Origin: Lunatibacter salilacus
GTDB lineage: Bacteria; Bacteroidota; Bacteroidia; Cytophagales; Cyclobacteriaceae
Length of the DNA stretch: 64,000 nucleotides
Direction: 5' to 3'
NCBI RefSeq assembly: GCF_009797935.1
Contig: NZ_VOLC01000014.1
Coordinates: 1 to 64,000, forward strand
The position numbers and the translations under genes are program-made. Positions 9,094-38,051 of this stretch are shown one piece after another; position 1 is the first letter of the stretch; each line of letters starts with the position of its first letter. Below the pieces are notes generated by a model that saw nothing but the letters and a program-made list of their open reading frames with translations, did no database searches and was not told the DNA's origin.

Positions 9094-9109
9094 AAGTAAT
9101 GCTAATTTA

Positions 9110-9254: not shown

Positions 9255-9343
9255 AAAATTTTTTACAAGAAATTGATTTTATAAAAAAGAATTACCTTTT
9301 CCCGGTGTAAAATAACTCTCTCAAAGTTGCGGGAAAAAACGAA

Positions 9344-12616: not shown

Positions 12617-12639
12617 CATAAATTAGATTTTCGCCAAAA

Positions 12640-12830: not shown

Positions 12831-12946
12831 TTAACTTTACCTTTATTTCACAAAAAATCCGCCTTATACCTGCCGAGGCTGTGTGAAAAGACTAATTATA
12901 AAAACTTTCAACGTACAATAATTCGTTTCAAGAAATCATTAAAATC

Positions 12947-22425: not shown

Positions 22426-23695
22426 GATGTTTAGGGTTTTTATACAAGTACCTGACCATTACACCTATAGTCCCATAATATAAGATAACGAACCTGGGTT
22501 GATCTGTGATCACACTGGACACTGAAGTCAAGGGTAAAATGAAGCAGAAAATTGAGAAAGAAATAAAAAAAGCAGCCACTCCATAATCCTTGTCTCTTAT
22601 TGCCTTTTTATAAGATTTCAAACTCATCAAATACGTTGCGACTAATAAAATAACGTACAAGAGTATCCCAATAATTCCATATCTATACAAATATAAGGCA
22701 TAAAAGGATTCCAATTGTGGTCCGGTAGATTTTCCTATTCCAACTCCAATAAGGGGTATTGAAAATTGATTTTCCAATACCCACAATAATTGTTGGTATC
22801 GTATATTTGCAGAACCTCCCCCGGTAGCCGAAACCCCGCCCTTTTCAATTAAAGCATTGATGCCTAAGTAAAGATACGGATAGGTTCTTTCTGCCCAATT
22901 CAAAATAGGTTGATAAATAATAAACACAATTCCAATAAATAGAAAAAAGAAAATATAGACCGTTTTTTTATGTGGCAACCCTTCAAAACTCCAATAAATG
23001 AAAAATACATACAGATAGGAGAAAAGTAAGGCTATGAGCATAGTCCTGCTTTGAGAGGCCAGTACACAAACTAAAGACAACAAATAAAAAATGAGATCTT
23101 TTTTGTTTCTTTCAAAAAGGTATTTAAAAAAAAAATAATATGATGAAAATATCATAAAAACAGCAAAAAAATAGGTTATCCCAAATGACCCGGTTGATTT
23201 ACCATAAAGAATGGGACGATCGGTTTTGTAAATAATAGTACTTACTTTATTCCCCAAACTGCCACCAAAAGCCTCAAAAAGAGCATAAATAATTGAAAGA
23301 ACAAAAACAAGCCGGAAAACATTGACCAAGTATTTCTTGATAGTTTGGGTATCCCAACTAACGGAAGAGAACAAAAAAAATACTAAAATAATATATATAG
23401 GCTTATGGAATTCAAATAAATCTCGGATTGAAATATATTCCAATTCTATGAATATTGATATACATATCAACAAAATAAAAATTGAAAAGTAAATCAATGC
23501 ATAAAACACATGCCTAGATTTTAGGGAAGATTTAAAGAATAGAAGGTAGATAGCCATTAATCCGATAGCTGATCCAACCATAACGATATCACCTAATCTT
23601 CCTCCCGAAGTTCTAGTAAATGCAGGGAAAGCAGGAAACAGGATTATAAATGGGATAAAAAATTTAAAAAACGTTAGCCGATTAATTGTAATCAT
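22391..23695 (-). CDS. O-antigen/exopolysaccharide polymerase (Wzy-like)
   Basis: The 434-residue product is a membrane protein with roughly ten to twelve hydrophobic segments and a large periplasmic loop in the second half (from about 260 to 330) that contains GVGIGKSTGPQLESFYALYL, the pattern of the O-antigen ligase/polymerase (Wzy_C) family. It would join lipid-linked repeat units in the periplasm. Sequence conservation in Wzy proteins is poor, so the call leans on topology and position beside wzx and wzz. It overlaps the upstream gene by 4 nt. Confidence 0.8.
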   Translation of the reverse strand: MITINRLTFFKFFIPFIILFPAFPAFTRTSGGRLGDIVMVGSAIGLMAIYLLFFKSSLKSRHVFYALIYFSIFILLICISIFIELEYISIRDLFEFHKPIYIILVFFLFSSVSWDTQTIKKYLVNVFRLVFVLSIIYALFEAFGGSLGNKVSTIIYKTDRPILYGKSTGSFGITYFFAVFMIFSSYYFFFKYLFERNKKDLIFYLLSLVCVLASQSRTMLIALLFSYLYVFFIYWSFEGLPHKKTVYIFFFLFIGIVFIIYQPILNWAERTYPYLYLGINALIEKGGVSATGGGSANIRYQQLLWVLENQFSIPLIGVGIGKSTGPQLESFYALYLYRYGIIGILLYVILLVATYLMSLKSYKKAIRDKDYGVAAFFISFSIFCFILPLTSVSSVITDQPRFVILYYGTIGVMVRYLYKNPKHLEELSENSPSY

Positions 23696-24768
23696 ATTAA
23701 GGCTATTGCTAATTCGTAAGCCCTACTTGACAAAGTTAGCGGATCTGGATTATTATCGGAAAGGAAATAACCTTGCTGATTTTGAGTTTTCTGAATCTGT
23801 ATTTCGAGGGAGTCAATTATTCCTTTTTCGTTAATATTTAAAAGCAAATGCTTAAAAACCCCGTAAACCAATGGTAATTCAAAAGCTGGGGAATTATAGG
23901 TATATGCATATTTGTTTTCAACCAACCGATTCAAAAAGGGTGTGGAAAACCCATACTTCAAAGCTTTGATGAAATTATTTGATTTGAAGAGCTTATGGTC
24001 TGGAAATATCCGGTATAAACGGGCCAAAGGGAAAAGGTTATATAAATGATAACCAATTTCTTTTTCAATTACTGAATTCCTATCTCTCTTCAAATACAAT
24101 TCATACCTTAAAGATAAAATTTTACTCTTAAATGAATTGGCTTTTAAAAGATGTATAATCAGACCATCATCACGAATCTCAAAGCCTTGGGAAAGAAGGT
24201 GGTCTAAGAATAACTCAACGTTATCTAAGTGCATACTTTCTCCGGTCTCTGCTAGTGCAGAAGCATACCACAACTGATGGTTAAGGGTATAATCCACTTT
24301 GCTGGTACCTTGGATAGGATCTTTTGCTATCCAAGCCTTCACCCTTTTGTCAAATGGAAAAGCGTCTGCGATATGCCTGGAATAATCGAGATAATCAGGA
24401 TCATTTAAACATTTAGACGCTATAGAAAAAGCCTCTATGACCCATGCTTGTCCAATTACGCCATTACAGCCATCTTTTCCGGATTTTTGCCTTTGGATAA
24501 ATACGCCATTCTTTTGAAGCTTTTCACTTCCTTTAAGGTATTTCAACAACAATAAAGCAGTATTTTTATACTCATCTTTTTGCGTCAAATAATATAAAAC
24601 ACTGAAGATTATAGCAACATGGGCAGAGTTTCTGACCGGCGTTTCCAGGTCGAAATAAGGACCGTTTTCTCCACCTGGGAAAAATCCCGTCTCATTTCCG
24701 ATTTTTACGATTTTCCCGGAAAGTTCCGGAGCCAAATTTTCAAGAAAAGAAATGTTATTATTTACCAT
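23692..24768 (-). CDS. Unassigned alpha/alpha-toroid-like protein in the polysaccharide operon
   Basis: The 358-residue protein (counting from the second ATG) is soluble, without signal peptide, and largely helical. Repeated helix pairs such as HVAIIFSVLYYLTQKDEY, GQAWVIEAFSIASKCLNDPD and NHQLWYASALAETGE are reminiscent of six-hairpin glycosidases, polysaccharide lyases and the C-terminal domain of glucuronyl C5-epimerases. No catalytic residues can be named. An upstream ATG at 24801 would add 11 residues but deepens the overlap with the preceding gene from 11 to 44 nt. It sits between a GT2 and wzy, so a role in modifying or trimming the repeat unit is possible; this is inference. Confidence 0.7.
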   Translation of the reverse strand: MVNNNISFLENLAPELSGKIVKIGNETGFFPGGENGPYFDLETPVRNSAHVAIIFSVLYYLTQKDEYKNTALLLLKYLKGSEKLQKNGVFIQRQKSGKDGCNGVIGQAWVIEAFSIASKCLNDPDYLDYSRHIADAFPFDKRVKAWIAKDPIQGTSKVDYTLNHQLWYASALAETGESMHLDNVELFLDHLLSQGFEIRDDGLIIHLLKANSFKSKILSLRYELYLKRDRNSVIEKEIGYHLYNLFPLARLYRIFPDHKLFKSNNFIKALKYGFSTPFLNRLVENKYAYTYNSPAFELPLVYGVFKHLLLNINEKGIIDSLEIQIQKTQNQQGYFLSDNNPDPLTLSSRAYELAIALI

Positions 24769-25660
24769 TTGTTCCTCCCCATAATCTAAATATTCCAACA
24801 AATATTCCGGCAGCTGTCACCCACCTTAAAAAATAACCTAGAAAAAACAAGCGGAAAAATCTCTTATGCAAAAATAGATGGCCTCCCTTATCAATCGCAT
24901 CTTTTAACCGACCGGGGTGGGGAGGAACCCAAAATAAAATAAATCTATTTACCATATTTATAACAAATGATTTTTCTTCCATCCATACGGTTGGTTGCCC
25001 TTTAGCAACCCGAAACTGCTTCTTTACCAATGGTGAAAACCCCCTAGGGAGCATTAAAACTTTGGCATTCTCACTGTATATTAGTTTGAAATTGTTATTT
25101 GTGGCCTTTTTTGTCCAACGCACATCACCGCCAGATCTTAAGCCTTCCGGGAAGGCTCCTATTTCCTCAAAAACTTCCTTTCTAACAAACAAGTTACCAG
25201 TTTTTGCAACTTGCCTTTGGTTTATGGATTCTTCCATTCTAATATTGAATAACGAATCATAACTTTTGCCAATTGAATCGCTTTCGTGAAGTAAAAACTT
25301 CACTGCTCCACCAACTAACTTAACTTCGTAATCCTTAGCAAAACATTGCACAGCGGAAGATAGCCACGTTTTAATAGGAGCACTTGTTGTATCCAAAAAA
25401 GAAATTATATCCCCTTTGGAAATTTCCAACCCCCGATTCCGGGCAGAATAAGGACTTCCCAAGTATTTTTTTTCTTCCAGAAATATGGCATTGAATTTCA
25501 TCGCAATATCCCTAGGGTTATCTTGGGAACCGTTGTCTATAACGATAACTTCATATAAACTGCTTGGGTAATCTTGTAATGAGATTGCTTTTAAGACCCT
25601 ATCAAGGCCCTTAGCATTATTAAAAACCGGAATTATAATAGAAACAAAATAATTGTTCAT
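24758..25660 (-). CDS. Family 2 glycosyltransferase with an altered DxD site
   Basis: The 300-residue protein begins VSIIIPVFNNAKGL and has IDNGSQDN (41-48) for nucleotide binding, as in GT2. Where the metal-binding DxD is expected, the sequence is FLDTTSAP with only Asp90. The later GGDVRWTKKA stretch corresponds to the acceptor region of AglE/TuaG-like enzymes. Two hydrophobic segments at the C-terminus suggest membrane attachment. It lies 3 bp downstream of wzz. Confidence 0.82.
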   Translation of the reverse strand: MNNYFVSIIIPVFNNAKGLDRVLKAISLQDYPSSLYEVIVIDNGSQDNPRDIAMKFNAIFLEEKKYLGSPYSARNRGLEISKGDIISFLDTTSAPIKTWLSSAVQCFAKDYEVKLVGGAVKFLLHESDSIGKSYDSLFNIRMEESINQRQVAKTGNLFVRKEVFEEIGAFPEGLRSGGDVRWTKKATNNNFKLIYSENAKVLMLPRGFSPLVKKQFRVAKGQPTVWMEEKSFVINMVNRFILFWVPPHPGRLKDAIDKGGHLFLHKRFFRLFFLGYFLRWVTAAGIFVGIFRLWGGTNGK

Positions 25661-25663
25661 GAA

Positions 25664-26785
25664 TTAATTTTGAATGTAATTTTTAAATAGCAAAATTATT
25701 ATAAATACTACTCCGAAAAATGTGCCCAAAAATGCGAAAATAAGAATCGTTAAAATTAAATTTGGTTCACTAGGAGCCAAAGGAACCTTGGGCTTTTGAA
25801 AAATTGTCAAAATCGGCTTTGCTTCCTGAAATTTTAACTTTGATTGTTGGTATTGTTGTGCTAATGAATTATAAAGTTGAAAAGCCAATTCATATTCAGC
25901 CTGTAACCGCTGTTCTGTAGTTTTCGCACTTTGTGTGACAATCCCCATGTTTTTATCTCTAAATGACGCCAATTTCATTTGCGAAACTTCAAAATTGTTT
26001 TTGGCTTCCTCGGTCTGAATTTCCACAAACTCCAAATTTTCTCTTTCCCGGTCAGTATTAATCTTTATTACATAATCAGTGAGTGCATTGATAATTTTAT
26101 TGTTTACTTCTGTTGACACTTCGCTATCAGGCATTTTAATACTAATCTCTATTATCCTATCCAGTTTGGTGATTTCTATTCTAGATGTTAATTTTCTTAT
26201 AGCCAAACTTTCCCTAGGACCAATCCTATAAAGGTCGTCTACATTTTGGGCCAACATAGATGAATCATTCTTAACCTCTTCATTGTTACTTTTAATTTTT
26301 GACACTATAAGCCTTGGTAAAGAGAATAATACTTCAAACCAGTTTTTCTCTTCATATTCAGAAAAAAAGGTTACCAGATCCATTGATTTTCCTAAACTTT
26401 TAAAGTAGAGCGTGTCTTGTGCGATAATTAGTAAAAAATCATCATTAAAAATTATTTCCGGATATAATTCCGGTGTAATTATTTCCCCATCACTTCTGGA
26501 AGTGTTCAAATTACCGACACCTGACAATACCGACAGTCCGGAAAATCCCTTCCCTAATAAATTAGTATTTTGATTGGTAAGCACTTTAGAGGTGGAATGA
26601 AATTCTTCCGGTGATGTCAACGATTTAATTATCCCTAATAGAGAAAAGAAAAGTGCAAATAGAAAAATAACTTTCCTACCGGCATAAAAAATTAACAACA
26701 GCTTATTGATCTCAATTGTATCAGAAGCTTTTGTTTCTTTTACAAAAGTATTTACTTTGTTTTTTAATTTATTCAATTGAATCAT
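25664..26785 (-). CDS. Wzz-type chain-length determinant
   Basis: The 373-residue protein is a polysaccharide co-polymerase. One membrane helix is near 37-55 and the second near 345-367, and a long periplasmic coiled-coil-rich domain lies between them (from about 60 to 330; ERENLEFVEIQTEEAKNNFE). A proline-rich KVPLAPSEPN precedes the second helix, as in Wzz. There is no cytoplasmic tyrosine kinase domain, so it resembles a Wzz or WzcN rather than a full Wzc. It would set the modal chain length together with Wzy. Confidence 0.88.
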   Translation of the reverse strand: MIQLNKLKNKVNTFVKETKASDTIEINKLLLIFYAGRKVIFLFALFFSLLGIIKSLTSPEEFHSTSKVLTNQNTNLLGKGFSGLSVLSGVGNLNTSRSDGEIITPELYPEIIFNDDFLLIIAQDTLYFKSLGKSMDLVTFFSEYEEKNWFEVLFSLPRLIVSKIKSNNEEVKNDSSMLAQNVDDLYRIGPRESLAIRKLTSRIEITKLDRIIEISIKMPDSEVSTEVNNKIINALTDYVIKINTDRERENLEFVEIQTEEAKNNFEVSQMKLASFRDKNMGIVTQSAKTTEQRLQAEYELAFQLYNSLAQQYQQSKLKFQEAKPILTIFQKPKVPLAPSEPNLILTILIFAFLGTFFGVVFIIILLFKNYIQN

Positions 26786-26809
26786 TTGTAAATAGAAATA
26801 TTGCTATAA

Positions 26810-27739
26810 TTATTTCTGAAAGATTTGTTTGGCAGTAACATTAACATAATAAATCACCCTCCAAATTATTTTGACAATACTTGAATTGGAATTTAACTTT
26901 TTTTGGGTTTTAGAAGAAATGTAATTACGTATGATCAAATTTCTAGCCTTCTGGTCCAAATCCGCCTGTTTAGCCCAATTATAAATATACTGATCTTTTA
27001 ACAGTACTGAATGAAAGTTTCTATTCTGAATCCTATTTTCTTCGTGTACCCTTCTTATTGCCACTGGATTACGGTGGCCTCCCGGATAAAATCTACCCCT
27101 TGATGCTATTTTTATCCAAAAAGCAGAATCCTGATGCAATTTTAAATTCTTATCGAATATATATTCTCCAATTAGAACCTCCTTCTTTATGGTTATACCA
27201 TTGATGTGTGGAGTGCCATTCTTCCCTTCTAGTATAGCATGGAAAAATGGGATTCCTGAATATTCTATTTTAGGGTAGGTAATGTATTTTTCGGAGGCTT
27301 CTATCGATAACCTCCTCCATTTGCAAAATGCCAATTGGGCTTCCTCACTTTCAAAAAATGTTCCCACAGGTTCATACAAGGCTTCAATCGAGGGATCTTC
27401 AGAAAATCTTTTTTTTGTAAACTCGAATCGGTCCGGCATAAAATAATCATCCGCATCCAAAAACGCTATATACTCATATTTTGCGTGTTGAATTCCCAAA
27501 TTCCTACTTGCTCCTGCCCCCCTATTCTCTCTATTGGGATGGTGAAGTAATATAACTTTGCCATGGATTTTCTCGAGCTTCTGACAGATTTCCAGACAGT
27601 TATCAGGTGAGTTATCCTCTATTAATATAACTTCCTCCACCTCAGGTAAACCTATGGCTGATTTTACCGCATGCTCCAAGTAGGTTTCAGCATTATAAAC
27701 TGGGATAATTACAGAAACCTTAAATTCATTCAATTCCAT
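26810..27739 (-). CDS. Family 2 glycosyltransferase
   Basis: The 309-residue protein shows the GT2 core: VSVIIPVYNAETYLEHAV, LIEDNSPDNC and the metal-binding FLDADDYF. The C-terminal part is basic and ends in a hydrophobic stretch that may touch the membrane. It overlaps the acetyltransferase gene upstream by 14 nt. Donor and linkage cannot be predicted. Confidence 0.88.
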   Translation of the reverse strand: MELNEFKVSVIIPVYNAETYLEHAVKSAIGLPEVEEVILIEDNSPDNCLEICQKLEKIHGKVILLHHPNRENRGAGASRNLGIQHAKYEYIAFLDADDYFMPDRFEFTKKRFSEDPSIEALYEPVGTFFESEEAQLAFCKWRRLSIEASEKYITYPKIEYSGIPFFHAILEGKNGTPHINGITIKKEVLIGEYIFDKNLKLHQDSAFWIKIASRGRFYPGGHRNPVAIRRVHEENRIQNRNFHSVLLKDQYIYNWAKQADLDQKARNLIIRNYISSKTQKKLNSNSSIVKIIWRVIYYVNVTAKQIFQK

Positions 27740-28433
27740 TCTTCTGGCATAGGTGTTGCAGTGATTTTATATTCAATGGTTCTTTAAAAAAATCAGCATT
27801 TGATCTAATTTTCTCCAATTCCCATTCCCACCATTTTAGTTTAATTAACAATTCAATTACCTCCGGGGAAAAGCGGTATTTAATAACTTTCGCTGGTGTC
27901 CCCACAGCGATGGCATAGGGAGGGATCTCACCGGATACTACACTATTTGCACCAATGATGGCGCCATCACCTATCCGGGCCCCGCTAAGTACAATACATT
28001 GCGCTCCTATCCAAACATCATTTCCGATTTTAATGGGTCCTTTAGAAGAAATATCACTCTTTTCGTTGCCTCCAAGCAAATTTTGTAGTACAAAGTAAGT
28101 CGAGATTCGCTTTGTATTATGGTTAAATTCCTGAATAATCGAACCGCGTGCCAGGCTGCAGAATGAACCAATTTCAACTGAATGGATCATACTTCTGATG
28201 TCAAAAGATGGGCCGTTTAAAGAACTATATCTTCCAATTTTAACTTGAGATTTGGCTGATATATTTATTCCATTAATCAATTTAGCACCTTCGCCAATCA
28301 AAACTTCGCCCCTAATTTTGGTCCCTTTTAGAATTACAGAGTGATGAATAGAAGATGCTTCGGAAATCTCCACATCATTAAACTTATCAATTAATGATTT
28401 GATTCTTCGTATTAACCTATGATGTAATTTCAT
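27726..28433 (-). CDS. Hexapeptide-repeat acetyltransferase
   Basis: The 235-residue protein is a left-handed beta-helix acyltransferase. It has isoleucine-rich hexapeptides from about 25 to 190, the active-site region FNHNTKRIS, and the C-terminal GNDVWIGAQCIVLSGARIGD and GTPAKVIKYRF signatures of the CatB/LacA/WcaF group. It would O- or N-acetylate a sugar of the repeat unit using acetyl-CoA. It overlaps the upstream gene by 17 nt and the downstream gene by 14 nt, so it belongs to the operon. Confidence 0.87.
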   Translation of the reverse strand: MKLHHRLIRRIKSLIDKFNDVEISEASSIHHSVILKGTKIRGEVLIGEGAKLINGINISAKSQVKIGRYSSLNGPSFDIRSMIHSVEIGSFCSLARGSIIQEFNHNTKRISTYFVLQNLLGGNEKSDISSKGPIKIGNDVWIGAQCIVLSGARIGDGAIIGANSVVSGEIPPYAIAVGTPAKVIKYRFSPEVIELLIKLKWWEWELEKIRSNADFFKEPLNIKSLQHLCQKNGIE

Positions 28434-29838
28434 CTACCAAATGGGTAAAGTCCTTTAATTCGCTTTTTTTGTTTGGTTTATTCAGCATCAATTGTTGAAT
28501 AATATCTAAAATTACTTTTTTTGAGGGGTTATCGATACCTATTACCCTTCCCGGTTCCATGATTGTTGAAAAGGTTTTTATACCTATTTGTTCCAATATA
28601 ATGGTAGGGGTATTAAGGGCTACTCCTTCGATGATGGCTCCAGAAAATTTTGAAATATGTATTGATGCATGCTCTAGAAGCAACGGCAATGCTAACTCAT
28701 TGGCAATTTTTAAATCAATTTTATCCAACACACCCTCCTCTTTTAAAATTGCGATAAGCGAATTCCTATCTTCAACTGTAATCCTGGGATGTAGACGAAT
28801 CATCCATAAAAAGTCCTCACATGTGTCTTTAATGGATTGCACCAAGTATTCATTTATCACCGGTACAAGCGGTTGATGCGTAAATAATATGATGGGTTTT
28901 TCCTTGGGAATGTCCGTTACAACCGCTCTCTCTTTTACATATAACAGCCAAGGGTTTCCGGATACTTTTGCTTTATGTTTGGTCCCATTGGACCATTGTG
29001 CTATAAACCGATAGGAATGATCATCCCAGCACCAAAATTCCTTGGGTAAAGAATTATATCCATTGGTTGGGACTTTGGAATAATGGTAAGCCGGATGTAG
29101 TTCCCCTTGAGCACCATGTTGCATATCAATTGCCGTGATACCCATTGAATTGGCAGCTAAATTCATTCCAAACATCGCTGGGGAATAATAACAAAGTCCG
29201 AATGAAGCTTTGGGCTTGGTCTTTTTGAAAATGTAGAGATATAGCTTTTTCCACCTTGCGACAGTATTCAAATTACGAATCAAGCCCGATAAAAATTGTG
29301 CTTGATTCATCCCGAAATATTCGTTGACAGAGGTAAGGAATGCTTCGAAACCGGGAAGCTTTTTTAGATCCCTTATTTTAACTTTATCACCTCTAAACAA
29401 TGGGATTAATTTATCTATTGCAAAATCATCCCCTTTGCTTTGAGGCGAAGAATCAAAATTTAAATTCAGAAAAGAGATGTTCTTCTCCGCTAAGTATTGA
29501 TTGACGGGTTTAAAATACCTATTAATAAATTGATCCTGATAATAAACTTTATGGCTTGCTGCTCCGGAAAAGACAATTTCGCATTTTCCGATTTTAAGCT
29601 TTAATATATAATTCAGAGCACTTAATAAACTAGCCGCCTTATTGGTGAAGATCTTCAATTTACCGCTCTTTACTTTTTCTGTTGTGTGTAGGGAATTTCC
29701 TGAATTAAGTGAGAAAAATAAGTGCTTTTTGAAAAGGGGCCATACATGCATTCCATTTATTTCCCAAGTTTCAACCGGAAAGTTTTGTTCCAGTAAATTA
29801 ATTTTTTGGATCAGAATAGCTCTATTTTCGGAACTCAT
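28417..29838 (-). CDS. GT-B-like protein, possible nonulosonate (sialic-acid-like) transferase
   Basis: The 473-residue soluble protein is not a standard GT family member that I recognise. It shows a QHG at 240-242 followed by LHPAYHYSKVP, a later beta strand IRLHPR with His350-Pro351, and ISKFSGAIIEG at 395-405. Histidine-proline and serine-containing motifs at matching places occur in bacterial sialyl- and polysialyltransferases (GT52, GT38 and related families), where they bind the CMP donor. It lies directly after the CMP-nonulosonate synthetase and flippase genes, and no other gene here is an obvious candidate for that transfer. The assignment is inference. A CDP-glycerol-type transferase is an alternative. 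Confidence 0.6.
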   Translation of the reverse strand: MSSENRAILIQKINLLEQNFPVETWEINGMHVWPLFKKHLFFSLNSGNSLHTTEKVKSGKLKIFTNKAASLLSALNYILKLKIGKCEIVFSGAASHKVYYQDQFINRYFKPVNQYLAEKNISFLNLNFDSSPQSKGDDFAIDKLIPLFRGDKVKIRDLKKLPGFEAFLTSVNEYFGMNQAQFLSGLIRNLNTVARWKKLYLYIFKKTKPKASFGLCYYSPAMFGMNLAANSMGITAIDMQHGAQGELHPAYHYSKVPTNGYNSLPKEFWCWDDHSYRFIAQWSNGTKHKAKVSGNPWLLYVKERAVVTDIPKEKPIILFTHQPLVPVINEYLVQSIKDTCEDFLWMIRLHPRITVEDRNSLIAILKEEGVLDKIDLKIANELALPLLLEHASIHISKFSGAIIEGVALNTPTIILEQIGIKTFSTIMEPGRVIGIDNPSKKVILDIIQQLMLNKPNKKSELKDFTHLVDEITS

Positions 29839-31237
29839 TTATTTTTTTCTTAAAAAACAAAAACAACAAACCTAAAATAAAGACAAATAAAGAAGTAAGC
29901 ACTAATTTACTAGGAATTGGGAGCTCCACCAAGTAATAAGCCATCCCGGTAAGAATCACGGTAATAAGCAGCCATCTAATCGGATAATATTCAGCATTGT
30001 TGATCCTTTTAAAGATCTTGAGATAAAAGCCGATATAACCCATAAACATCAGAGAAACAAAGGTGGTAAATGCGGCAATTTGGAAACCAAATATCGGAAT
30101 GAGCAAAAAGTTGGATACTACATTAATTACCCCTGCTACAAATGTTACCCTCCAAAGAACTTTTGTTTTTTCAGTATAAAACAGCTTATTATTTGACCCC
30201 ATATACATGGGCCTGTAATTATATCCCATTACAATGATTATTCCCAAAGAATACATACTAGCCAACGTATCATTCCGAATTAGAAAGGCGAAAATTTCCC
30301 TAAGCCAAATGCAGGCCAAAAAAGTACAAATTAAAAAAAGGATTTGAAGGACAAAAACAAGGTTTCTTGCCCCTATATCATCCCCCTTTTTGTACTTTTC
30401 CATCATCATAGGCCCTATGGCCAATCCGCTGGCTGTACCTACTTGCTGAACTATATTTCCTATCGTATAGGCCACATTATATTTCCCTATGTCTCCCGTA
30501 CCCACATTAACCATGTCCATGACCATTTTATCAGAACTATTTAATAAATAACCGGAATAGAAATGAGGAACTGTAGGTAGGCTTATCTTCAGGCTTTTTT
30601 TAATCAATTTCCATTTAAAGTTAAATATTGGCTTTATACCCAATTGAATGTTCATTGGGTACCAATAGGAAAAATTCGATATTACCCCTACCAGAAATGT
30701 AGACCAAAACCACCCCATATACCCCATTTTTAAATAGGATATAAAATAAAGATTTAAAAAAACACCCAAAATACCAAGAATTGCAGTGCGCAAACCTACC
30801 TGTACAGGTTTTTGATTAATTTGATAATAAGTGGTGCCAATGGTCGCTATCGGTCCAAATAATATAAACGGCCCAATGTTCAAAAGCATGATTTCTATCC
30901 GGTTTTCGCTGGCCTGCTCAGGAACTACCAAGTATATTAAAAATCCGAGTATTATTGCATAAAAAAAATTCCAAAGAGTTAAAAATCCATAAATCTGCCT
31001 CCATGCCCACTTGTATTGGCCGCTGGATTTAAAAAATGAATTAATTAAGACGACTCTCAGTCCCAACACTGCTAAAACGGAAATTGCAGTGGTATAAGCT
31101 GTCATAATACCAGCAACTCCAAAATCCAAATCGGTCAAGTCCTGGGTAATAATTGGCAATACAAAAATTTGGGCAATTTTTGCTACCTGCGGTGCCAATC
31201 CATAAATAGCAGTGTGGCTAAATAGCTTTTTTATCAC
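29822..31237 (-). CDS. Polysaccharide flippase (Wzx-like)
   Basis: The 471-residue membrane protein has about fourteen hydrophobic helices in the MATE/PST arrangement. Its N-terminus, FSHTAIYGLAPQVAKIAQIF, is typical of the polysaccharide biosynthesis flippase family. It would move undecaprenyl-linked repeat units to the periplasmic face for Wzy. The start codon overlaps the legF stop by 20 nt and its end overlaps the GT-B gene by 17 nt. Confidence 0.9.
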   Translation of the reverse strand: MIKKLFSHTAIYGLAPQVAKIAQIFVLPIITQDLTDLDFGVAGIMTAYTTAISVLAVLGLRVVLINSFFKSSGQYKWAWRQIYGFLTLWNFFYAIILGFLIYLVVPEQASENRIEIMLLNIGPFILFGPIATIGTTYYQINQKPVQVGLRTAILGILGVFLNLYFISYLKMGYMGWFWSTFLVGVISNFSYWYPMNIQLGIKPIFNFKWKLIKKSLKISLPTVPHFYSGYLLNSSDKMVMDMVNVGTGDIGKYNVAYTIGNIVQQVGTASGLAIGPMMMEKYKKGDDIGARNLVFVLQILFLICTFLACIWLREIFAFLIRNDTLASMYSLGIIIVMGYNYRPMYMGSNNKLFYTEKTKVLWRVTFVAGVINVVSNFLLIPIFGFQIAAFTTFVSLMFMGYIGFYLKIFKRINNAEYYPIRWLLITVILTGMAYYLVELPIPSKLVLTSLFVFILGLLFLFFKKKINEFRK

Positions 31238-31910
31238 TCAGCACAGCTTCTGCAACTTTCCAATCCAATAAGGTATCAATATCAAGAGAACTTATTTCAT
31301 CCATCAGGAATTTCTTGACCCTGCTAAATTCTCCGATACTTCTTTTTTTTAAGGCTTCTACGGAAATAATGTAAATGGCCCCATTCAATTCATATACTTT
31401 AGGACATTCCTGTCTACTTTTAAAATTTCCCTCTTTTGATTTTACCAACCAGCCTTCCGGGTTTTCTTCCCTGAGCACATAATAAGGATTGGATTTAGTT
31501 TCCATGACTGAAACCACCATCTCGCAATCATTAGAATATAGGCTTAAGGCATTTTGTATGTGGCGCCCAGTTCTAAACGGTGAGGTGGCCTGAAGCATGA
31601 TCAAAATGTCTGGAAAATACTTCCTGTTTTTTTCATAAAAGTTAACTGCATGAACTAATACTTCATATGATCCTGCTCCATCGCTTGCCAATTCTGAAGG
31701 CCTTAAAAAAGGCACCTGCAATCCTGCCTTTTCTACTACTTCCTTAATTTCTTGATCGTCTGTTGAAACACATATTATCTCATCAGAGAAAATCTCTCTT
31801 GCCGCTTCAATCGTATAATGAATTAACGGTTTACCATTAAGAGGTTTAATGTTTTTCCGAGGGACCCCCTTGGATCCGCCTCTAGCTGGAATAACTATCA
31901 ATGGCTTCAA
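31218..31910 (-). CDS. legF: CMP-nonulosonate (CMP-legionaminate-type) synthetase
   Basis: The 230-residue cytidylyltransferase activates a nonulosonic acid with CTP. The N-terminal IPARGGSKGVPRKNIKPL is the CTP-binding signature of the NeuA/PseF/LegF family, followed by CVSTDDQEI and MLQATSPFRTG. The C-terminal phosphatase domain of some animal and bacterial NeuA proteins is absent. With the synthase and hydrolysing epimerase genes next to it, legionaminate or a relative is more likely than pseudaminate. It overlaps the upstream gene by 4 nt. Confidence 0.88.
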   Translation of the reverse strand: MKPLIVIPARGGSKGVPRKNIKPLNGKPLIHYTIEAAREIFSDEIICVSTDDQEIKEVVEKAGLQVPFLRPSELASDGAGSYEVLVHAVNFYEKNRKYFPDILIMLQATSPFRTGRHIQNALSLYSNDCEMVVSVMETKSNPYYVLREENPEGWLVKSKEGNFKSRQECPKVYELNGAIYIISVEALKKRSIGEFSRVKKFLMDEISSLDIDTLLDWKVAEAVLSDKKAI

Positions 31911-32956
31911 AATTTGATATGGCTTATATCTTCCTTCGCTTTTTCAAAGTCCTCATGCTTACCAATGTCCAGCCAGTAACCTCTTAATGGGTAAGAATGA
32001 ACTTTCTTACCCAGCATAATAATTTTTTCAATCAAATCTGTTGCGTTAAAATGAGCGCCAACAGGGATCAACTCTATTACTTCACGTCTCATTAAATATA
32101 TACCCCCATTTGAAAAATAAGTATAGGTCGGTTTCTCCTTTAAACTTACCACATCACCTTTGTTTGTTTCTAATACAGCGTAAGGAATATTGACATCATA
32201 GGGAATAGTGACTACAGATAAATCTGCTCCAGATTCGACAAATGACCGATAGAAATCTTCATAATCAAGGTTAGTGAGAATATCAGAGTTAGTGACCAAA
32301 ATAGTATCATGTTGAAAATTGAATATACTGGTAACCGCTCCTATAGTCCCCAAAGGTTGGTCTTCTGTAACATATTCAATCGTAACCCCTTTCGATTCTC
32401 CATCCCCAAAATAGGATTTTAACTGATCTCCTAAATACCCTAAAGAAATCCAATAATCAGCAATACCAAACGATATCAACCTGTCCAAATTATGTTCTAT
32501 AATTGGTTTTTCACCTATAGGCAGCATTGGCTTTGGAGTATTATTTGTAAGGGGTTTTAACCTTTCGCCTCTTCCGCCCGCCATAATAACAGCATCTACT
32601 GGTAGGTATGATTTGAATATCCTAAAATTAATAATATTTAAAATCCTACCGTCTTCATCCAATATGGGGATTACTTTAAAATTACCATTTCTGAAAGCGA
32701 TGATCTGATCTAAGTCAACCGCATTTTTTCTAATAAATTTGGGGTTAGGCTGAATAAAATCAACAATATTACTACTCGTATTTAACCCTTTTAAGAGCCC
32801 CCTCCTTACATCACCATCCGTTAAAGAACCAATCAGACCATTGTCTTTATCCACCACAAACAAAATAGCATCTTTGGCAAGTTTGTCCAACTTGGCCAAA
32901 GCATGTAGGATTGTTTGGTCCTTGGATATTAGATGCTCTTTAAAATTACTGAACAT
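31907..32956 (-). CDS. CBS-domain sugar nucleotidyltransferase (PtmE-like)
   Basis: The 349-residue protein joins a CBS pair (about 1-115; LIGSLTDGDVRRGLLKG and KVIPILDEDGRILNIINF) to a GT-A nucleotidyltransferase (from 121; VIMAGGRGERLKPLTNNTPK, then PMLPIGEKP). This arrangement is that of Campylobacter PtmE, which makes GDP-GlcNAc for legionaminic acid synthesis. That role would explain its place between legG and legF. The CBS pair could sense a nucleotide. It overlaps legG upstream by 11 nt and legF by 4 nt. Confidence 0.85.
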   Translation of the reverse strand: MFSNFKEHLISKDQTILHALAKLDKLAKDAILFVVDKDNGLIGSLTDGDVRRGLLKGLNTSSNIVDFIQPNPKFIRKNAVDLDQIIAFRNGNFKVIPILDEDGRILNIINFRIFKSYLPVDAVIMAGGRGERLKPLTNNTPKPMLPIGEKPIIEHNLDRLISFGIADYWISLGYLGDQLKSYFGDGESKGVTIEYVTEDQPLGTIGAVTSIFNFQHDTILVTNSDILTNLDYEDFYRSFVESGADLSVVTIPYDVNIPYAVLETNKGDVVSLKEKPTYTYFSNGGIYLMRREVIELIPVGAHFNATDLIEKIIMLGKKVHSYPLRGYWLDIGKHEDFEKAKEDISHIKF

Positions 32957-34061
32957 ATTCTGTTAGCCATTTTTTTATAATATCCGTCGCACCACCCAAG
33001 TCATAAATGTTCCTTCCTGAAAATTTCTTCCCCGCAAACTCATTAATTTTCTCAAATATCAATTGCTCATTATAGGGAACATGAATTACATTTTCACCGC
33101 TTTCTCTGCCTTTTTGCCGACTACCTAAATTGATAACAAATTTTTGAAAACTTGCTGCCTCAATTATTCCGCTGGAGGTGTTACCTACCATTAAAATGGC
33201 ATGTTTCATGCATGTAAAGTAACTTTGCGTTCCAAAGTTTTCAATAAGTTTAATTTTGCTTTTATCTTGAGAAGCAAGCTTATTGAACATTTCACGATAC
33301 AAGGTACCTACAGTATCTGCATTTGGCATTGTTATGATAATTTGATAGTCATCTTTCAGTTTTACTATCAAAGATTCCAGAAGGGCGATGGTGCATTTAT
33401 TTGAGTCAAAATCAATCGTTTCTGGATGTACCGTAAATAACAGCGTGGGAATGGTAAGGTCTATTTTCCATTTTTCGTAAAAACCCTCTACACTCAGCAA
33501 ATCTATCTCCTTAAGATTATCTAAACTTAAGGCACCGACTACATGGCAATGGTCATCATCTCCTAATAAACCTTTTAACTTTTGCTTGAAAGAAGGCAAA
33601 GCCACGAAATGAATTTTAGAGGCCAATGAAATACTATGCCTATAAACGTTATCAATTGCACCCAGCGTGGTTTCCCCACCATGAATATGAACAAATTGGA
33701 TATTAAATGGAATACCTGCCGCAACAGCTGCTGCCATTTCGAAACGGTCTCCAAGGACAATAGTAAACTTATATTGGCCTGAAATGCTTTTCCAAAAATC
33801 AGAGAACTTTAATGCAGTCAGACCGTATGCCGTAGCAATATCTTCTGCCTTGTCCCCAATGACCATATTATTTATCTCATATTTCACAGGTACACCCAAG
33901 CGTGTAATATCATCTAGGGTATATCCATGGAATTTCGATAAATGAGTACCAAAAACACAAAGATCAAGTTCAAAAGCATTATCTGTGGAAACTGATTTGA
34001 TTAAAGGTAAATAAATCCCAAAATCTGCCCTTGAGCTTGTCAACAACAAAATTTTTATCAT
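32946..34061 (-). CDS. legG: Hydrolysing NDP-sugar 2-epimerase (LegG/NeuC-like)
   Basis: This member of the UDP-GlcNAc 2-epimerase fold releases the nucleotide and yields a mannosamine-type sugar for nonulosonate synthesis. Motifs include SSRADFGIYLPLI, GDRFEMAAAVAA, FVHIHGGETTLGAIDN, FTVHPETIDFD and GNTSSGIIEAASF. The first ATG at 34076 overlaps legI by 19 nt; the ATG at 34061 gives a 4-nt ATGA overlap and the usual MIKILLLTSSRAD start, so I prefer it (371 residues). The neighbours define the pathway. Confidence 0.88.
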   Translation of the reverse strand: MIKILLLTSSRADFGIYLPLIKSVSTDNAFELDLCVFGTHLSKFHGYTLDDITRLGVPVKYEINNMVIGDKAEDIATAYGLTALKFSDFWKSISGQYKFTIVLGDRFEMAAAVAAGIPFNIQFVHIHGGETTLGAIDNVYRHSISLASKIHFVALPSFKQKLKGLLGDDDHCHVVGALSLDNLKEIDLLSVEGFYEKWKIDLTIPTLLFTVHPETIDFDSNKCTIALLESLIVKLKDDYQIIITMPNADTVGTLYREMFNKLASQDKSKIKLIENFGTQSYFTCMKHAILMVGNTSSGIIEAASFQKFVINLGSRQKGRESGENVIHVPYNEQLIFEKINEFAGKKFSGRNIYDLGGATDIIKKWLTEYVQ

Positions 34062-35080
34062 TGAATTTGGCTCCATTCTACCATGGTGTCGGCTGGTACA
34101 TCGACACTCACTTTTTTCCCTATAATTTGATCAATATCCATTGGAGAAATGCCATTTCCTGGCCTTTTTACAGTAAGTCTTTCTTTGGTAATGATGTCTC
34201 CTACTGAAATATTATCAATGAAAAATATTGATTTTCTAGCAACTATCTTATTAGGAATTTCAGAGTCACTTGGCGATTTAATTCCACTGCCTGAAATTGC
34301 TAATTCAATATTCCGAATTCCCCTAACCATATCTTTTAATTCACCCGGTTCAAGAGATGCTTTATGATCCGGACCTGGTAGGGATCTGTCCAAAGTAAAA
34401 TGCTTTTCAATTACCCCTGCTCCCAGAGCTACAGCGGCAATAGGCACCTCTATACCCAGAGTATGGTCGGAATATCCAATAGCTACCTTTAGTTCATCCC
34501 TTATGTGCAGCATGGCTTTTAGGTTGACATCCTTCATCGGTGTGGGGTACTCTGTATTGCAATGTAAAACGGTAATTTCATCACGTCTTCGATTACAGGA
34601 TTCAAAAACCGCAAGTGCTTGCGAAATTTCCTGAATATTAGCCATACCCGTGGATAAAATTATAGGCTTACCTTTTAAAGCGACATGCTTAAGGTAAGGC
34701 TTATTGGTGATTTCACCTGATGGAATTTTAAACAATTCCAAACCTATTTGATCTAGGAAATCTATGCTTTCTTCATCAAAACCTGTAGATAAAAATTTAA
34801 TTCCCGCATCCGCCGAAAATTGAAGCAATTCACTATACCAATCCTCCGGCATCTCCAGTTTTTTCAACATATTATATTGAGAATCATCAGCGTCTTTGAA
34901 ATTTTTTGATTGATAAGCAGCTTTTTTAGCAGCTTTCGAAACCAATTTATCTGCATTAAAAGTCTGAAATTTCACATAATCTGCACCTGCATCAGCGGCT
35001 ACCTGAATCAGCTCTTTGGCTAAATTCAAATCTCCATTGTGATTTACACCAGCCTCTGCAATAATGATCACTCTATCCAT
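34058..35080 (-). CDS. legI: Nonulosonate synthase (NeuB/LegI family)
   Basis: The 340-residue enzyme condenses phosphoenolpyruvate with a six-carbon N-acyl mannosamine derivative to make a nine-carbon nonulosonic acid. The TIM barrel opens with IIAEAGVNHNGDLNLAKELI and carries VKFQTFNAD, LFKIPSGEI, ILSTGMANI, VLHCNTEYPTP, IGYSDHTLGIEVPIAAVALG and EKHFTLDR, all family hallmarks. The C-terminal SAF (antifreeze-like) domain starts near residue 285 (ISVGDIITKERLTVKRPGNG). It abuts legH with no gap. Confidence 0.93.
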   Translation of the reverse strand: MDRVIIIAEAGVNHNGDLNLAKELIQVAADAGADYVKFQTFNADKLVSKAAKKAAYQSKNFKDADDSQYNMLKKLEMPEDWYSELLQFSADAGIKFLSTGFDEESIDFLDQIGLELFKIPSGEITNKPYLKHVALKGKPIILSTGMANIQEISQALAVFESCNRRRDEITVLHCNTEYPTPMKDVNLKAMLHIRDELKVAIGYSDHTLGIEVPIAAVALGAGVIEKHFTLDRSLPGPDHKASLEPGELKDMVRGIRNIELAISGSGIKSPSDSEIPNKIVARKSIFFIDNISVGDIITKERLTVKRPGNGISPMDIDQIIGKKVSVDVPADTMVEWSQIQ

Positions 35081-35710
35081 TTATTTTATTTTTTTTACAG
35101 GCGATCCAATATATATTCCAGGATCACAAATGTCTTTTAAAACCAAAGATCCTGCGCCGACTATTATATTTTCTCCGATTTTAACACCTTCTTTGATTAC
35201 CGATCCAGCGCCAATAAAACTATTTCTTCCCACCTTTACATCACCGGCAAGAACTGCACCTGGGGCAACGTGAACAAAATCCTCCAATTTACATTCATGC
35301 TCTACCACAGCACCTGAATTAATTATGCACCCTACCCCTACTGTAGCAAAGCTATTGACCACCGCTTTGGGACAAACCAATGTGGACAAACCCAGGGTAG
35401 CGTAGTCACTGACAGTCGCACTCCTATCCACTAAATGTACCTGTCTCCAATCCCTGAAAGTTAAAAACTCCACTAACTTCTTTCGAATGGGGCCATCACC
35501 AACGGCCGGAAAAAAAAACAAGTCCGTAACATCATCTTTAGGCTGATAATCCTTTTCATTTCCAAGGTATTCTAATTGATGTGGGTTTTTTTCCTTTTCA
35601 AATCGTTCGAGGTAACCTATTACCCTATATCCTAGAGAGCTGGCAACATCCAAAACTACAAAGGAATGCCCTGAATATCCCAACAATATTAACTTCCTAA
35701 AACCGGGCAC
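35081..35710 (-). CDS. legH: NeuD/LegH-type sugar N- or O-acetyltransferase
   Basis: The 209-residue protein combines a small Rossmann-like N-terminal domain (LILLGYSGHSFVVLDVASSL) with a left-handed beta-helix, the layout of PglD, NeuD and LegH. The hexapeptide region includes GVGCIINSGAVVEHECKLED, with the catalytic-type His, and APGAVLAGDVKVG. In the legionaminate route it acetylates the 4-amino sugar made by LegC. It overlaps legC by 14 nt and is immediately followed by legI. Confidence 0.88.
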   Translation of the reverse strand: MPGFRKLILLGYSGHSFVVLDVASSLGYRVIGYLERFEKEKNPHQLEYLGNEKDYQPKDDVTDLFFFPAVGDGPIRKKLVEFLTFRDWRQVHLVDRSATVSDYATLGLSTLVCPKAVVNSFATVGVGCIINSGAVVEHECKLEDFVHVAPGAVLAGDVKVGRNSFIGAGSVIKEGVKIGENIIVGAGSLVLKDICDPGIYIGSPVKKIK

Positions 35711-36860
35711 TACTGGGGATATTTACAAGCCTGTCTGCCAAATAATTGGTGTTTTCCAGGCCATCTTTCAAAAACTCTTTGAACATGGGTAGCTGGTGCA
35801 TCGGCCTCCAAACTGGCCGGGTCATTACCTGAGCCGCATTTGAAATGGCTAAAAATTCATCTCTTTCCTTTTTATCAGAAAACAAAACAGCATTTAGCCA
35901 GAAATTGGATCTGCTATTTGGAGGTTCATCAAAATAGTGATACGCTTTATCCGAAAAAAAGGCTTTATATGTTTCTGCTATCGCTCTTTTATCCGTAATC
36001 AATTTCTGAAGTTGTTCCAACTGGGCACATGCCAAAGCTGCATTTAGGTTGGGCATGCGATAATTGTATCCTATTTCGTCATGAATAAATTCCCATTGAT
36101 GAGGAACCTTGGCTTGGGTAGTTAAATGCTTTGCCTTCTTGGCCATATCTCCATCATTTGTGACTATCGCACCACCCCCACCGCAGGTAACGGTTTTATT
36201 CCCGTTAAAACTAAATGTTCCAAGTAAACCAAATCCTCCCGTTTGCCTTCCCCTATAGCTGCTTCCCAGGGACTCAGCTGCATCTTCCACTACAGGAATT
36301 CCATAATTTTCGCAAATGTTAACGATTTCTTCAATCATTACCGGGTGACCAAAAGTATGCATGGGAACCACAGCGGCAACTCTTTTATTTGTTAAATGGT
36401 GGTAGCAGTTTAATTTACCTATATCCTTATCTGTTTTTAAATATGTATTGTTCTTCAACCAATGTTCTAGACTTTCAGGTGATAGACCAGCAGAAGACCT
36501 ATCAACATCTAAAAAAACTGGTTCAGCACCAATATAACTTATGGCGTTACAGGTAGCTATAAATGTCAATGACTGCGTGATCACCAAATCGTCCCGTTTT
36601 ACCCCAGCCACTAACATCGCCATGTGGAGTGCAGAAGTGCCGTTAACGGTTGCCACCGCATATTGGGTTCCTGCGATTTCAGCAATCATTTCTTCAAATT
36701 TGTTGACATAGGCTCCGACAGAGGAAACAAAGGTCGAGTCAATGGCATCGCAAAGATATTTTTTTTCATTACCGAGAAATTTCGGTTCGTGGAGAGGAAT
36801 GAAATCTTTCTCTGGGTATATTGACTTTATAAATGAAATGATTTCCTGAAATTTGTTCAT
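35697..36860 (-). CDS. legC: PLP-dependent sugar aminotransferase (LegC family)
   Basis: The 387-residue DegT/DnrJ/EryC1 protein transfers an amino group to the 4-keto sugar made by the preceding dehydratase. It has the N-terminal FIPLHEPKFLGNEKKYLCDA typical of LegC proteins, VNGTSALHMAM for the phosphate group, VEDAAESLGS around Asp193, and the PLP lysine at 222 in FSFNGNKTVTCGGGG. The stop of the dehydratase gene lies 3 bp before its start. Confidence 0.9.
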   Translation of the reverse strand: MNKFQEIISFIKSIYPEKDFIPLHEPKFLGNEKKYLCDAIDSTFVSSVGAYVNKFEEMIAEIAGTQYAVATVNGTSALHMAMLVAGVKRDDLVITQSLTFIATCNAISYIGAEPVFLDVDRSSAGLSPESLEHWLKNNTYLKTDKDIGKLNCYHHLTNKRVAAVVPMHTFGHPVMIEEIVNICENYGIPVVEDAAESLGSSYRGRQTGGFGLLGTFSFNGNKTVTCGGGGAIVTNDGDMAKKAKHLTTQAKVPHQWEFIHDEIGYNYRMPNLNAALACAQLEQLQKLITDKRAIAETYKAFFSDKAYHYFDEPPNSRSNFWLNAVLFSDKKERDEFLAISNAAQVMTRPVWRPMHQLPMFKEFLKDGLENTNYLADRLVNIPSSARF

Positions 36861-36863
36861 TTT

Positions 36864-38051
36864 TTACATTTTACTCTCTAAGAACTTTCCAGTTTCCTTA
36901 TGGGAAAAAGAAGGAAGCATATATTTGAAAAGTTTGGTTAAATCATTTTTTGTCCAGCTTAGGCTCTGCTTCATCTTATTGATTTCATCTAAAAAATAAG
37001 TTAGGTTTTTTCTGTCAAAATCAAAATTGCTTTTTATAATTCCTAGATTATGAAATTTGTCCAAATCCAAAACTTCCCCCTTCACAAAAAATTCTTCAAA
37101 ATCTTTTTCCCCCGTGGTATCACTATTGGTAAATAAACAGGGCCATTTGCCTTGGGATGGAAGATCATTAATCAATGCCCTCGCTTCATTTTCAGATTGA
37201 CATAAATAGGGTTCGTAACCCATTTGTTTTAAATATTTGAGGGCAATTTCAGCGAAAGTGATCAAATGCAGCTTTTCACTAAGTTTAGGAAAGAAGATGT
37301 CCTTGGAATCACCCAATAAACAGGACATTAAACAAAGTTCACCTGATTCTTGAGGGGTTACAAAATACCTCTTTATATCATTTGGGGCTACTATGGGCTG
37401 TTTTTTTATTATTCTTTGATTAAATCCATGCAACAGTGAACCATCTGAAAAAGCAACGTTGGCAAATCTGGCTGTTGAAATGGGAATTTCTTTGTTTTTT
37501 TCCAATAAAAACATTTCCATGATCCTTTTTGAGGCTCCCATCATGTTCACAGGATTGGCCGCCTTATCAGTCGAAACACAAAAATACTTCTTCCCTCCCT
37601 TCAATACCGCCTGGTCAATGGTCTTTATAGTATTCAGAATATTGACATCAATCATCCGCATTAAAGTAAATGGATCCTTTTCGCTTCTTACATGCTTTAA
37701 AGCTGAAAGATTTAATATGTAATCATAATATCCATCACTTTTCACAAAGGCATCATACTCCAAAGAACCTACATCAAGTGCGAAGGTCTCGAATTGGCCA
37801 TCGATGTAACCCATGGAACTTCTGATATCCCTTACCAATTCTACAAGGTTATTTTCGCTGATATCAACCACATGAAGCTTTTTGGGATTTCTTCTGAAAA
37901 TTTCCTTTGACACAGCCTGACCTATGGATCCAGCACCCCCAATTACCAAAAAAGATGACTTACCAACTATTTTAGCGAGTTCAACCTCATGGTTGCGAAC
38001 ATCCTCTTCAAAAAGTAATTGTTCTCTGCCTATCAGCTTTAAAATATCCAT
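36864..38051 (-). CDS. NDP-HexNAc 4,6-dehydratase (CapD-type, LegB role)
   Basis: This 395-residue short-chain dehydrogenase/reductase starts nonulosonate synthesis by converting an NDP-GlcNAc to the 4-keto-6-deoxy sugar. It has GGAGSIGQAV at 38-47, a conserved LSALKHVRSEKDP, and STDKAANPVNMMGASKR with Met171-x3-Lys175. That places a Met at the position of the classical Tyr, as in CapD/WbpM. This class keeps the C5 configuration, which fits legionaminate rather than pseudaminate (PseB). The long C-terminal part after about residue 290 is unlike Campylobacter LegB. It begins 71 bp after wza. Confidence 0.85.
   Translation of the reverse strand: MDILKLIGREQLLFEEDVRNHEVELAKIVGKSSFLVIGGAGSIGQAVSKEIFRRNPKKLHVVDISENNLVELVRDIRSSMGYIDGQFETFALDVGSLEYDAFVKSDGYYDYILNLSALKHVRSEKDPFTLMRMIDVNILNTIKTIDQAVLKGGKKYFCVSTDKAANPVNMMGASKRIMEMFLLEKNKEIPISTARFANVAFSDGSLLHGFNQRIIKKQPIVAPNDIKRYFVTPQESGELCLMSCLLGDSKDIFFPKLSEKLHLITFAEIALKYLKQMGYEPYLCQSENEARALINDLPSQGKWPCLFTNSDTTGEKDFEEFFVKGEVLDLDKFHNLGIIKSNFDFDRKNLTYFLDEINKMKQSLSWTKNDLTKLFKYMLPSFSHKETGKFLESKM

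Follow-up and report, generated by a model that had tools for sequence, protein, structure and literature searches.

Pathways that make activated legionaminate and pseudaminate, linked to cytidine monophosphate (CMP), are common in bacteria, and few cognate transferases have been identified. The question raised here is whether one of these enzymes is encoded in the window, that is, the first 64,000 nucleotides of contig NZ_VOLC01000014.1 of Lunatibacter salilacus (assembly GCF_009797935.1). An earlier note, made from the sequence alone, had proposed that the gene at positions 28417-29838 encodes a GT-B protein and may define a new family of nonulosonate transferases. A single open reading frame (ORF) of 473 codons, starting with ATG, was indeed found there by ORF calling and translation; the strand, which the note had left unstated, is the minus one. 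Its product is called P0001 below.

P0001 was best explained as a CMP-nonulosonate transferase, and most likely a CMP-legionaminate transferase, with a probability of roughly 0.7. This reading was preferred because a legionaminate-type pathway lies directly upstream, because P0001 alone among the glycosyltransferase-like genes of its operon falls outside the GT2 and GT4 families of Pfam, and because its relatives are associated with NeuB and CMP-synthetase genes beyond a control, together with a (K/R)xHP motif, an S-x4-E pair and a GT-B model. P0001 would be a cytoplasmic GT-B enzyme that accepts a CMP-activated nonulosonate, most likely the CMP-legionaminic acid supplied by the seven upstream genes, and would add it to the lipid-linked repeat unit of the operon's exopolysaccharide or O-antigen before this unit passes to the adjacent flippase. 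The donor is probably legionaminic acid (Leg) rather than pseudaminic acid (Pse) or neuraminic acid (Neu).

That the protein matches no familiar glycosyltransferase family, as the note had stated, was borne out: no model of Pfam, NCBIfam or PHROG matched it at E<=1. This scope included the Pfam sialyltransferase models (such as PF07388 and PF07922), the Capsule_synth model of the retaining transferases of Pse and 3-deoxy-D-manno-octulosonic acid (Kdo), the Glyphos_transf model of the cytidine diphosphate (CDP)-glycerol and CDP-ribitol transferases TagF and TarL, the Maf model of flagellin glycosyltransferases and, notwithstanding the fold match described below, the Epimerase_2 and NCBIfam models of the 2-epimerases of uridine diphosphate (UDP)-N-acetylglucosamine (UDP-GlcNAc). 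A sequence search of the PDB gave nothing meaningful, the best match being an alginate lyase at E 0.29.

Distribution of the family and its association with nonulosonate genes

Three alphaproteobacterial relatives with 21-25% identity were detected by tblastn in plasmids, each of them close to CMP-nonulosonate synthetase and NeuB genes. When a set of genome contigs was scanned with P0001 as a single sequence no match was obtained; an alignment of P0001 with the plasmid relatives then succeeded and retrieved seven, from Cytophagales (36% identity), Bacteroidia, Polyangiaceae, Marinimicrobia, an alphaproteobacterium, Sinorhizobium and the gammaproteobacterial family Acidiferrobacteraceae. The Sinorhizobium relative is identical to a plasmid one (L005 = L012). 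The same alignment matched in 19 of the 395 genomes of the window's phylum, its own included, and the single sequence matched in 3 of the 98 genomes of the window's family (again counting its own), which added two further relatives; in its own genome P0001 gave one match only. A 15-row profile matched in 32 of 369 genomes of the class to which the Acidiferrobacteraceae genome belongs, three of them strongly (E<1e-90, seed genome included). Phage sequences gave no match by tblastn with P0001 at E<=0.01. Relatives of P0001 occur in several bacterial phyla, and identity within the core set is 18-36%. Separately, four over-long CMP-synthetase- or NeuB-like ORFs of about 545-560 residues were noticed (L046, 5736-7373; L185, 122-1792; L037, 5841-7517; L038, 12304-13983), which are possible fusions with another domain.

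NeuB and CMP-synthetase served as phmmer queries (E<=1e-10) against the flanks of each relative, which extended to about 10 kb at most. NeuB was found beside 15 of the 20 phylum relatives, in nine cases along with the synthetase, and one or the other gene was near five of the seven relatives from the genome contigs and all three from plasmids. In the core family besides P0001, 11 of 14 members had such a neighbor; the three negatives (L009, L011 and L034) lie on contigs of 15.2, 4.4 and 10.2 kb, and truncation may account for them. As a control, the two GT4 (PF13439) places that headed the list for each of these 20 genomes were treated in the same way, and a marker was found in 0/20 and 1/20 of them, i.e., in 1 of 40, the single positive being located in the cluster of relative L050. 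The difference between 15/20 and 1/40 gave 4e-9 by Fisher's exact test, with genomes taken as independent despite their relatedness.

An association with the basic residue of (K/R)xHP was also observed among 13 gammaproteobacterial hits, since a nonulosonate marker accompanied five of the six with K/R at the aligned position and none of the seven without it (p 0.005). One of the latter, L177, showed aminotransferase and nucleotidyltransferase matches and neither NeuB nor CMP-synthetase. Six of these seven proteins are about 340-355 residues long and may be epimerases; hence, the contrast separates subfamilies and not point mutants.

Conserved motifs, predicted fold and alternative functions

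The earlier note had pointed to QHG, HP and a Ser-rich GxIxEG-like site as a likeness to the CMP-binding motifs of bacterial sialyltransferases. All three are present (QHG at 240-242, HP at 350-351, and the third as S396-K-F-S399-G-A-I-I-E404-G405) and are conserved across 15 members. In this alignment W33, P209, Q240, P265, W271, G294, H350, P351 and S399 are invariant, and P34, H241, R348 and E404 are conserved in at least 90% of the sequences; such conservation among diverse members exceeds what chance would give. The likeness itself held for the full (K/R)xHP motif but only in part beyond it, because QHG is not a sialyltransferase motif and HP and the S/E positions occur in epimerases too.

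The (K/R)xHP motif was present in 15/15 core members, 8/8 members of NCBIfam family NF046086 and 2/2 KpsC/S-type proteins, and nowhere in the sequence of eight NeuC-type epimerases, one from the window and seven from the relatives' loci. Among the phylum relatives, K/R was kept in all 19 that could be aligned at this position (of 20). HP alone was rejected as evidence for CMP, given that epimerases (in the alignment to 9cm8) and TagF-like proteins carry it as well; only the K/R two residues before it discriminates here. The HP of the window's own NeuC, at residue 217, aligns opposite P0001 residues near 322 and not 350. The passages on CMP binding in PMC12887879 describe (K/R)xHP as conserved in sialyltransferases of GT29, 38, 42, 52 and 80 and in the Kdo transferases GT99 and GT107, with the basic residue usually contacting O2 and N3 of cytosine; in KrkA, the contacts to the phosphate of CMP come from the motif His and Ser271, and that to its ribose from Glu276. 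S399 and E404 of P0001 share the five-residue spacing of Ser271 and Glu276. By homology, R348 would read the cytosine, H350 and S399 would hold the phosphate, and E404 would hold the ribose.

The site of the acidic motif is occupied differently. In a profile alignment with an overall probability of 49%, QHG aligned with the EDG of a KpsC/S-type protein. Core members carry Q-H-G in 12 of 15 cases, Q-H-S in two and Q-K-D in one. The sole [DE][DE]G of P0001 is EEG at 367-369, after HP, and such a triplet is absent anywhere in 11 of 14 relatives, while those of L013 (133), L011 (354) and L006 (466) are spaced differently from (K/R)xHP. In KpsC, the Asp of EDG serves as nucleophile, and a retaining Kdo/Pse mechanism with Asp at the place of QHG appears, judging by these alignments, unlikely for P0001. 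With QHG in place of the acidic motif, the catalytic apparatus should differ from that of sialyl- and Kdo-transferases; more speculatively, H241 might act as the general base of an inverting reaction instead of the acidic residue. The E153A and G154A variants of the polysialyltransferase NmB-polyST are inactive, so that this enzyme requires D/E-D/E-G, and its HP binds CMP-N-acetylneuraminic acid (CMP-Neu5Ac), according to the part of PMC2169525 that deals with these motifs.

An AlphaFold2 model of P0001 was built from eight sequences, with a predicted local distance difference test (pLDDT) of 85.3 and a predicted template modeling score (pTM) of 0.84. It consists of two Rossmann-like domains, and model and fold searches agree on the GT-B assignment made earlier. 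In the fold search, 798 of 1000 aligned chains reached Z>=8, and among the matches listed GT-B enzymes spanned residues 84-473. The donor domain alone (pLDDT 80.4) gave by Foldseek NeuC (2.9e-5), TagF with CDP-glycerol (3.2e-5), TarL (3.8e-4), the CMP-Kdo domain of WaaA (1.7e-3) and KpsC (1.9e-3), and by Z mostly enzymes of UDP- or thymidine diphosphate (TDP)-sugars. Structures of GT42, GT52 and GT80 were absent among the matches listed and may be present further down. Hence, the modeled fold supports GT-B, and it does not tell the nucleotide base or the donor family; UDP-sugar epimerases lead and generic GT-B enzymes follow.

Several observations weigh against a CMP-nonulosonate transferase, beginning with this ranking. 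UDP-GlcNAc 2-epimerases came first by both Foldseek and VIA-align (Z 20.4, root mean square deviation 4.0, 318 residues aligned, 16% identity), followed by MurG, antibiotic and other GT-B transferases at Z of about 17. According to the earlier note, its proposal would fall if the structure confidently matched a non-sialyl family, and the ranking formally touches that point; nevertheless, it is not decisive, since the epimerase matches share 9-16% identity and other GT-B enzymes are close behind. An epimerase was also the best PDB sequence match of a profile of the 20 relatives (E 3e-4), ahead of a diacylglycerol glucosyltransferase, TarL (2e-3) and KpsC (9e-3). The 15-member core profile was as similar to epimerases (96.1%) as to the BFO_1060 family, NF046086 (95.7%), and in a profile of five close members epimerases reached 93%, GT4 37% and NF046086 36%. 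The HP and S/E positions are found in UDP-sugar epimerases (alignment to 9cm8), and P0001 lacks the D/E-D/E-G of known sialyltransferases, with QHG at the aligned site. Two relatives depart from the signature, namely the core member L034, which is the one with QKD, and the wider relative L041, which keeps K/R and is without HP. Finally, no biochemical evidence was found for members of the core family.

On this evidence, P0001 could act on one of the pathway's nucleotide sugars without being a transferase, for instance as an epimerase-like enzyme, as its top fold matches, NeuC included, and weak Epimerase_2 matches in 4 of the 20 relatives (best 1.9e-5) would suggest. This is highly improbable, given that the operon already holds a NeuC/LegG epimerase scoring over its family cut-off, that Epimerase_2 does not match P0001 itself at E<=1, and that (K/R)xHP is missing from all eight epimerases compared. 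Among the seven Pfam families matched by the 20 relatives at E<=0.1, sialyltransferase families were not represented; Capsule_synth was weakly matched in three relatives and Glyphos_transf in one (8.5e-8). The last match, the second place of TagF with CDP-glycerol among the donor-domain hits and the weak TarL profile match speak for a TagF/TarL/TagB-like transferase of a CDP-polyol or another CDP donor, in which (K/R)xHP would bind cytidine too. We regard such a donor as very unlikely, since P0001 is without a Glyphos_transf match at E<=1 and those operon genes that have a family match serve nonulosonate synthesis, sugar transfer and assembly, no CDP-polyol synthase having been identified among them.

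P0001 might also serve the same polysaccharide as a GT-B transferase with a different nucleotide-sugar donor, for instance a UDP-linked one, its adjacency to nonulosonate genes reflecting shared clusters. The closeness of the fold to UDP-sugar enzymes is in keeping with this, as is the profile built from P0001 and L007 alone, which was nearest to GT4 controls (63%, with epimerases at 7.5% and NF046086 at 3.6%). NeuB and CMP-synthetase were, moreover, not found within reach of 5 of the 20 phylum relatives. There is also a precedent in Bacillus subtilis, where SpsB, which has a TagB domain as well as DEG and HP motifs and is encoded beside CMP-Leg genes, could be deleted with the Leg of the spore unchanged, as described in the relevant part of PMC7439481; therefore, neighborhood plus motif can mislead. 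Shared clusters, however, would fit poorly with GT4 loci of the same genomes being associated in 1/40 cases against 15/20, and the family keeps the K/R of (K/R)xHP, whose presence in Gammaproteobacteria goes along with nonulosonate genes. Another donor sugar is thus considered unlikely, and the transfer of a CMP-nonulosonate remains the preferred function.

The operon around P0001

The operon is located on the minus strand and is tightly packed, with ORF overlaps of 20 nucleotides between synthetase and flippase, 17 between flippase and P0001 and 17 between P0001 and the acetyltransferase. Of the two neighbors named earlier, the flippase adjoins P0001, whereas the CMP-nonulosonate synthetase lies one gene further upstream. 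The features are collected in Table 1.

Table 1. Features of P0001 and of the genes next to it, in window coordinates.
Feature	Position	Strand	Basis
P0001, 473-residue GT-B protein, predicted CMP-nonulosonate (legionaminate) transferase	28417..29838	-	ORF, translation, AlphaFold2 model
W33-P34, family-typical WP motif near the N-terminus	29737..29742	-	W33 invariant, P34 in at least 90% of 15 members
Q240-H241-G242, D/E-D/E-G position of sialyl/Kdo transferases; H241 candidate catalytic base	29113..29121	-	Profile alignment to KpsC/S-type EDG; Q invariant, H in at least 90%
R348-L349-H350-P351, (K/R)xHP, predicted cytosine/phosphate-binding motif	28786..28797	-	15/15 core members
S399-G-A-I-I-E404, predicted CMP ligands: phosphate (Ser), ribose (Glu)	28627..28644	-	Conservation; S-x4-E spacing as Ser271/Glu276 of CMP-bound KrkA (PMC12887879)
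Hexapeptide (Vat/CatB-like) acetyltransferase, directly downstream of P0001	27726..28433	-	Pfam, NCBIfam
Flippase-like hydrophobic protein, 471 residues, directly upstream of P0001	29822..31237	-	Translation; homologue in same position in L007
CMP-nonulosonate synthetase (CTP_transf_3)	31218..31910	-	Pfam 2e-26; best NCBIfam PseF, below its cut-off
CBS + nucleotidyltransferase, putatively PtmE-type (GDP-GlcN branch of legionaminate pathway)	31907..32956	-	Pfam NTP_transferase 4.3e-40, CBS 1.3e-7
NeuC/LegG-type nucleotide-sugar 2-epimerase	32946..34076	-	TIGR03568 over cut-off
NeuB/LegI-type nonulosonate synthase	34058..35080	-	TIGR03569 (NeuB_NnaB) over cut-off, PseI below cut-off
NeuD/LegH-type sugar N-acetyltransferase	35081..35710	-	TIGR03570 over cut-off
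LegC-family aminotransferase	35697..36860	-	TIGR04181 over cut-off, E 4.4e-159
LegB-type sugar 4,6-dehydratase (Polysacc_synt_2)	36864..38051	-	Pfam 1.2e-40

This gene set fits the synthesis of legionaminic acid by the route through guanosine diphosphate glucosamine (GDP-GlcN). The roles of PtmE, LegB, LegG, LegI and LegF are assigned by analogy with the known pathway, and LegC is the most specific database match among its genes. Further downstream, Pfam gave the order GT2, Wzz/GNVR, GT2, a protein without a family match, a Wzy_C-like protein (below cut-off), GT4 and GT2, and a polyprenyl-phosphate sugar transferase type (Glycos_transf_4) at 17989-19152. The other transferases of the operon are thus of the GT2 (three genes) and GT4 (one gene) types, as had been claimed, plus the Glycos_transf_4 one. 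The protein at 23692-24801 (369 residues), between the GT2 and Wzy-like genes, had no match in Pfam, NCBIfam or PHROG. The flippase-like protein is very hydrophobic in translation, yet without a Pfam or NCBIfam match; homologues are encoded near NF046086 members and in the loci of relatives, L007 and L049 among them.

The order flippase, glycosyltransferase, acetyltransferase is retained in the Cytophagales relative with 36% identity. A hexapeptide acetyltransferase directly follows the glycosyltransferase in 5 of the 15 core loci (the window, L007, L035, L037 and L038), with an ORF overlap of 4-23 nucleotides in four of them. This adjacency suggests that the transferred sugar is acetylated. 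The GC content of the operon (20546-38051) is 36.3%, against 40.6% for the window, and it may have been acquired horizontally. A second nonulosonate locus was observed in the same genome, on contig 6 (5000-24900, L190), with dehydratase, DegT aminotransferase, CTP_transf_3 and NeuB genes (5858-10784). Near them (12046-13242) lies a 398-residue protein with RLHP and without a Pfam match above cut-off, which may be the transferase of that locus.

Comparison with known systems

No description of the family of P0001 was found by titles and abstract starts in the openly licensed PMC literature. The nonulosonate transferase as a kind of enzyme is already known, and in this respect the novelty claimed earlier was overstated; what stood of that claim is the controlled association with CMP-nonulosonate genes and the lack of a family match. 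In Tannerella forsythia, GtfS (Tanf_01245) and TFUB4_00887 transfer Pse and Leg derivatives, and their knock-outs lose the terminal nonulosonate by mass spectrometry, as reported in the relevant parts of PMC6388019 and PMC6120980. These sources also describe lengths of 445 and 442 residues, HP, DXD and D/E-D/E-G motifs and, for GtfS, GT-B homology and a position adjoining CMP-Pse genes. Before these enzymes, as stated in PMC6388019 (2019), a Leg or Pse transferase had not been shown experimentally. Compared by their published descriptions only, they have HP in common with P0001, and their D/E-D/E-G corresponds to its QHG.

The family NF046086 (BFO_1060 family glycosyltransferase) was matched by 11 of the 20 wider relatives at E<=0.1. 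It shares with P0001 both (K/R)xHP and NeuB neighbors, but its model did not match P0001 at E<=10, and no match was obtained in P0001's own genome. The best of ten proteins scanned singly reached 37.3 bits against a curated cut-off of 200 bits. Placement of P0001 in NF046086 was therefore rejected, the core profile match being no stronger than that to NeuC-type epimerases. Since epimerases and GT4 score alike or higher, the link is one of superfamily level. Members over the cut-off were found in 8 of 296 genomes, and as seven of the eight are beside NeuB (L085-L090 and L044 among the members), NF046086 is a nonulosonate-transferase candidate in its own right. BFO_ is a T. forsythia locus prefix, and BFO_1060 might be GtfS; a literature search for the name BFO_1060 gave no paper.

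Sialyltransferases of GT38, GT52 and GT80 share HP with P0001, whereas no match to their sequence families was found and their essential D/E-D/E-G corresponds to QHG. A genome search with GT52 gave no match anywhere, controls included, and three proteins matching the GT38-type PF07388 gave 0-4% probability as single sequences, a weak test. The GT-B fold has been solved for GT80 and predicted for GT38, with HP serving for CMP-Neu5Ac binding, in the relevant part of PMC2169525. The UDP-GlcNAc 2-epimerases are the best overall fold match (Z of about 20), but P0001 has no match to their family models, and the eight NeuC-type proteins have no (K/R)xHP.

GT99 and GT107 have (K/R)xHP in common with P0001, and KrkA (GT140), as far as its CMP site is described in PMC12887879, has the same S-x4-E spacing of CMP ligands, with Ser where P0001 has K/R. 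The EDG position of KpsC/S-type enzymes is QHG in P0001, which argues against the same retaining mechanism as in GT99, GT107, GT118 (KpsS1) and GT140. It is conceivable, with odds somewhat short of even, that the core family defined by WP, QHG, (K/R)xHP and S-x4-E constitutes a new family at CAZy level, made up of CMP-nonulosonate transferases from several phyla, in which H241 replaces the acidic residue; the family of P0001 and its QHG variant appear to be uncatalogued in Pfam and NCBIfam. A recognizable family with a clear signature provides candidates for testing across several phyla and might yield enzymes for the synthesis of legionaminyl glycans. If the activity is true, QHG in place of the acidic motif of the known sialyl- and Kdo-transferases would mean that catalysis is solved differently on a shared CMP-binding frame.

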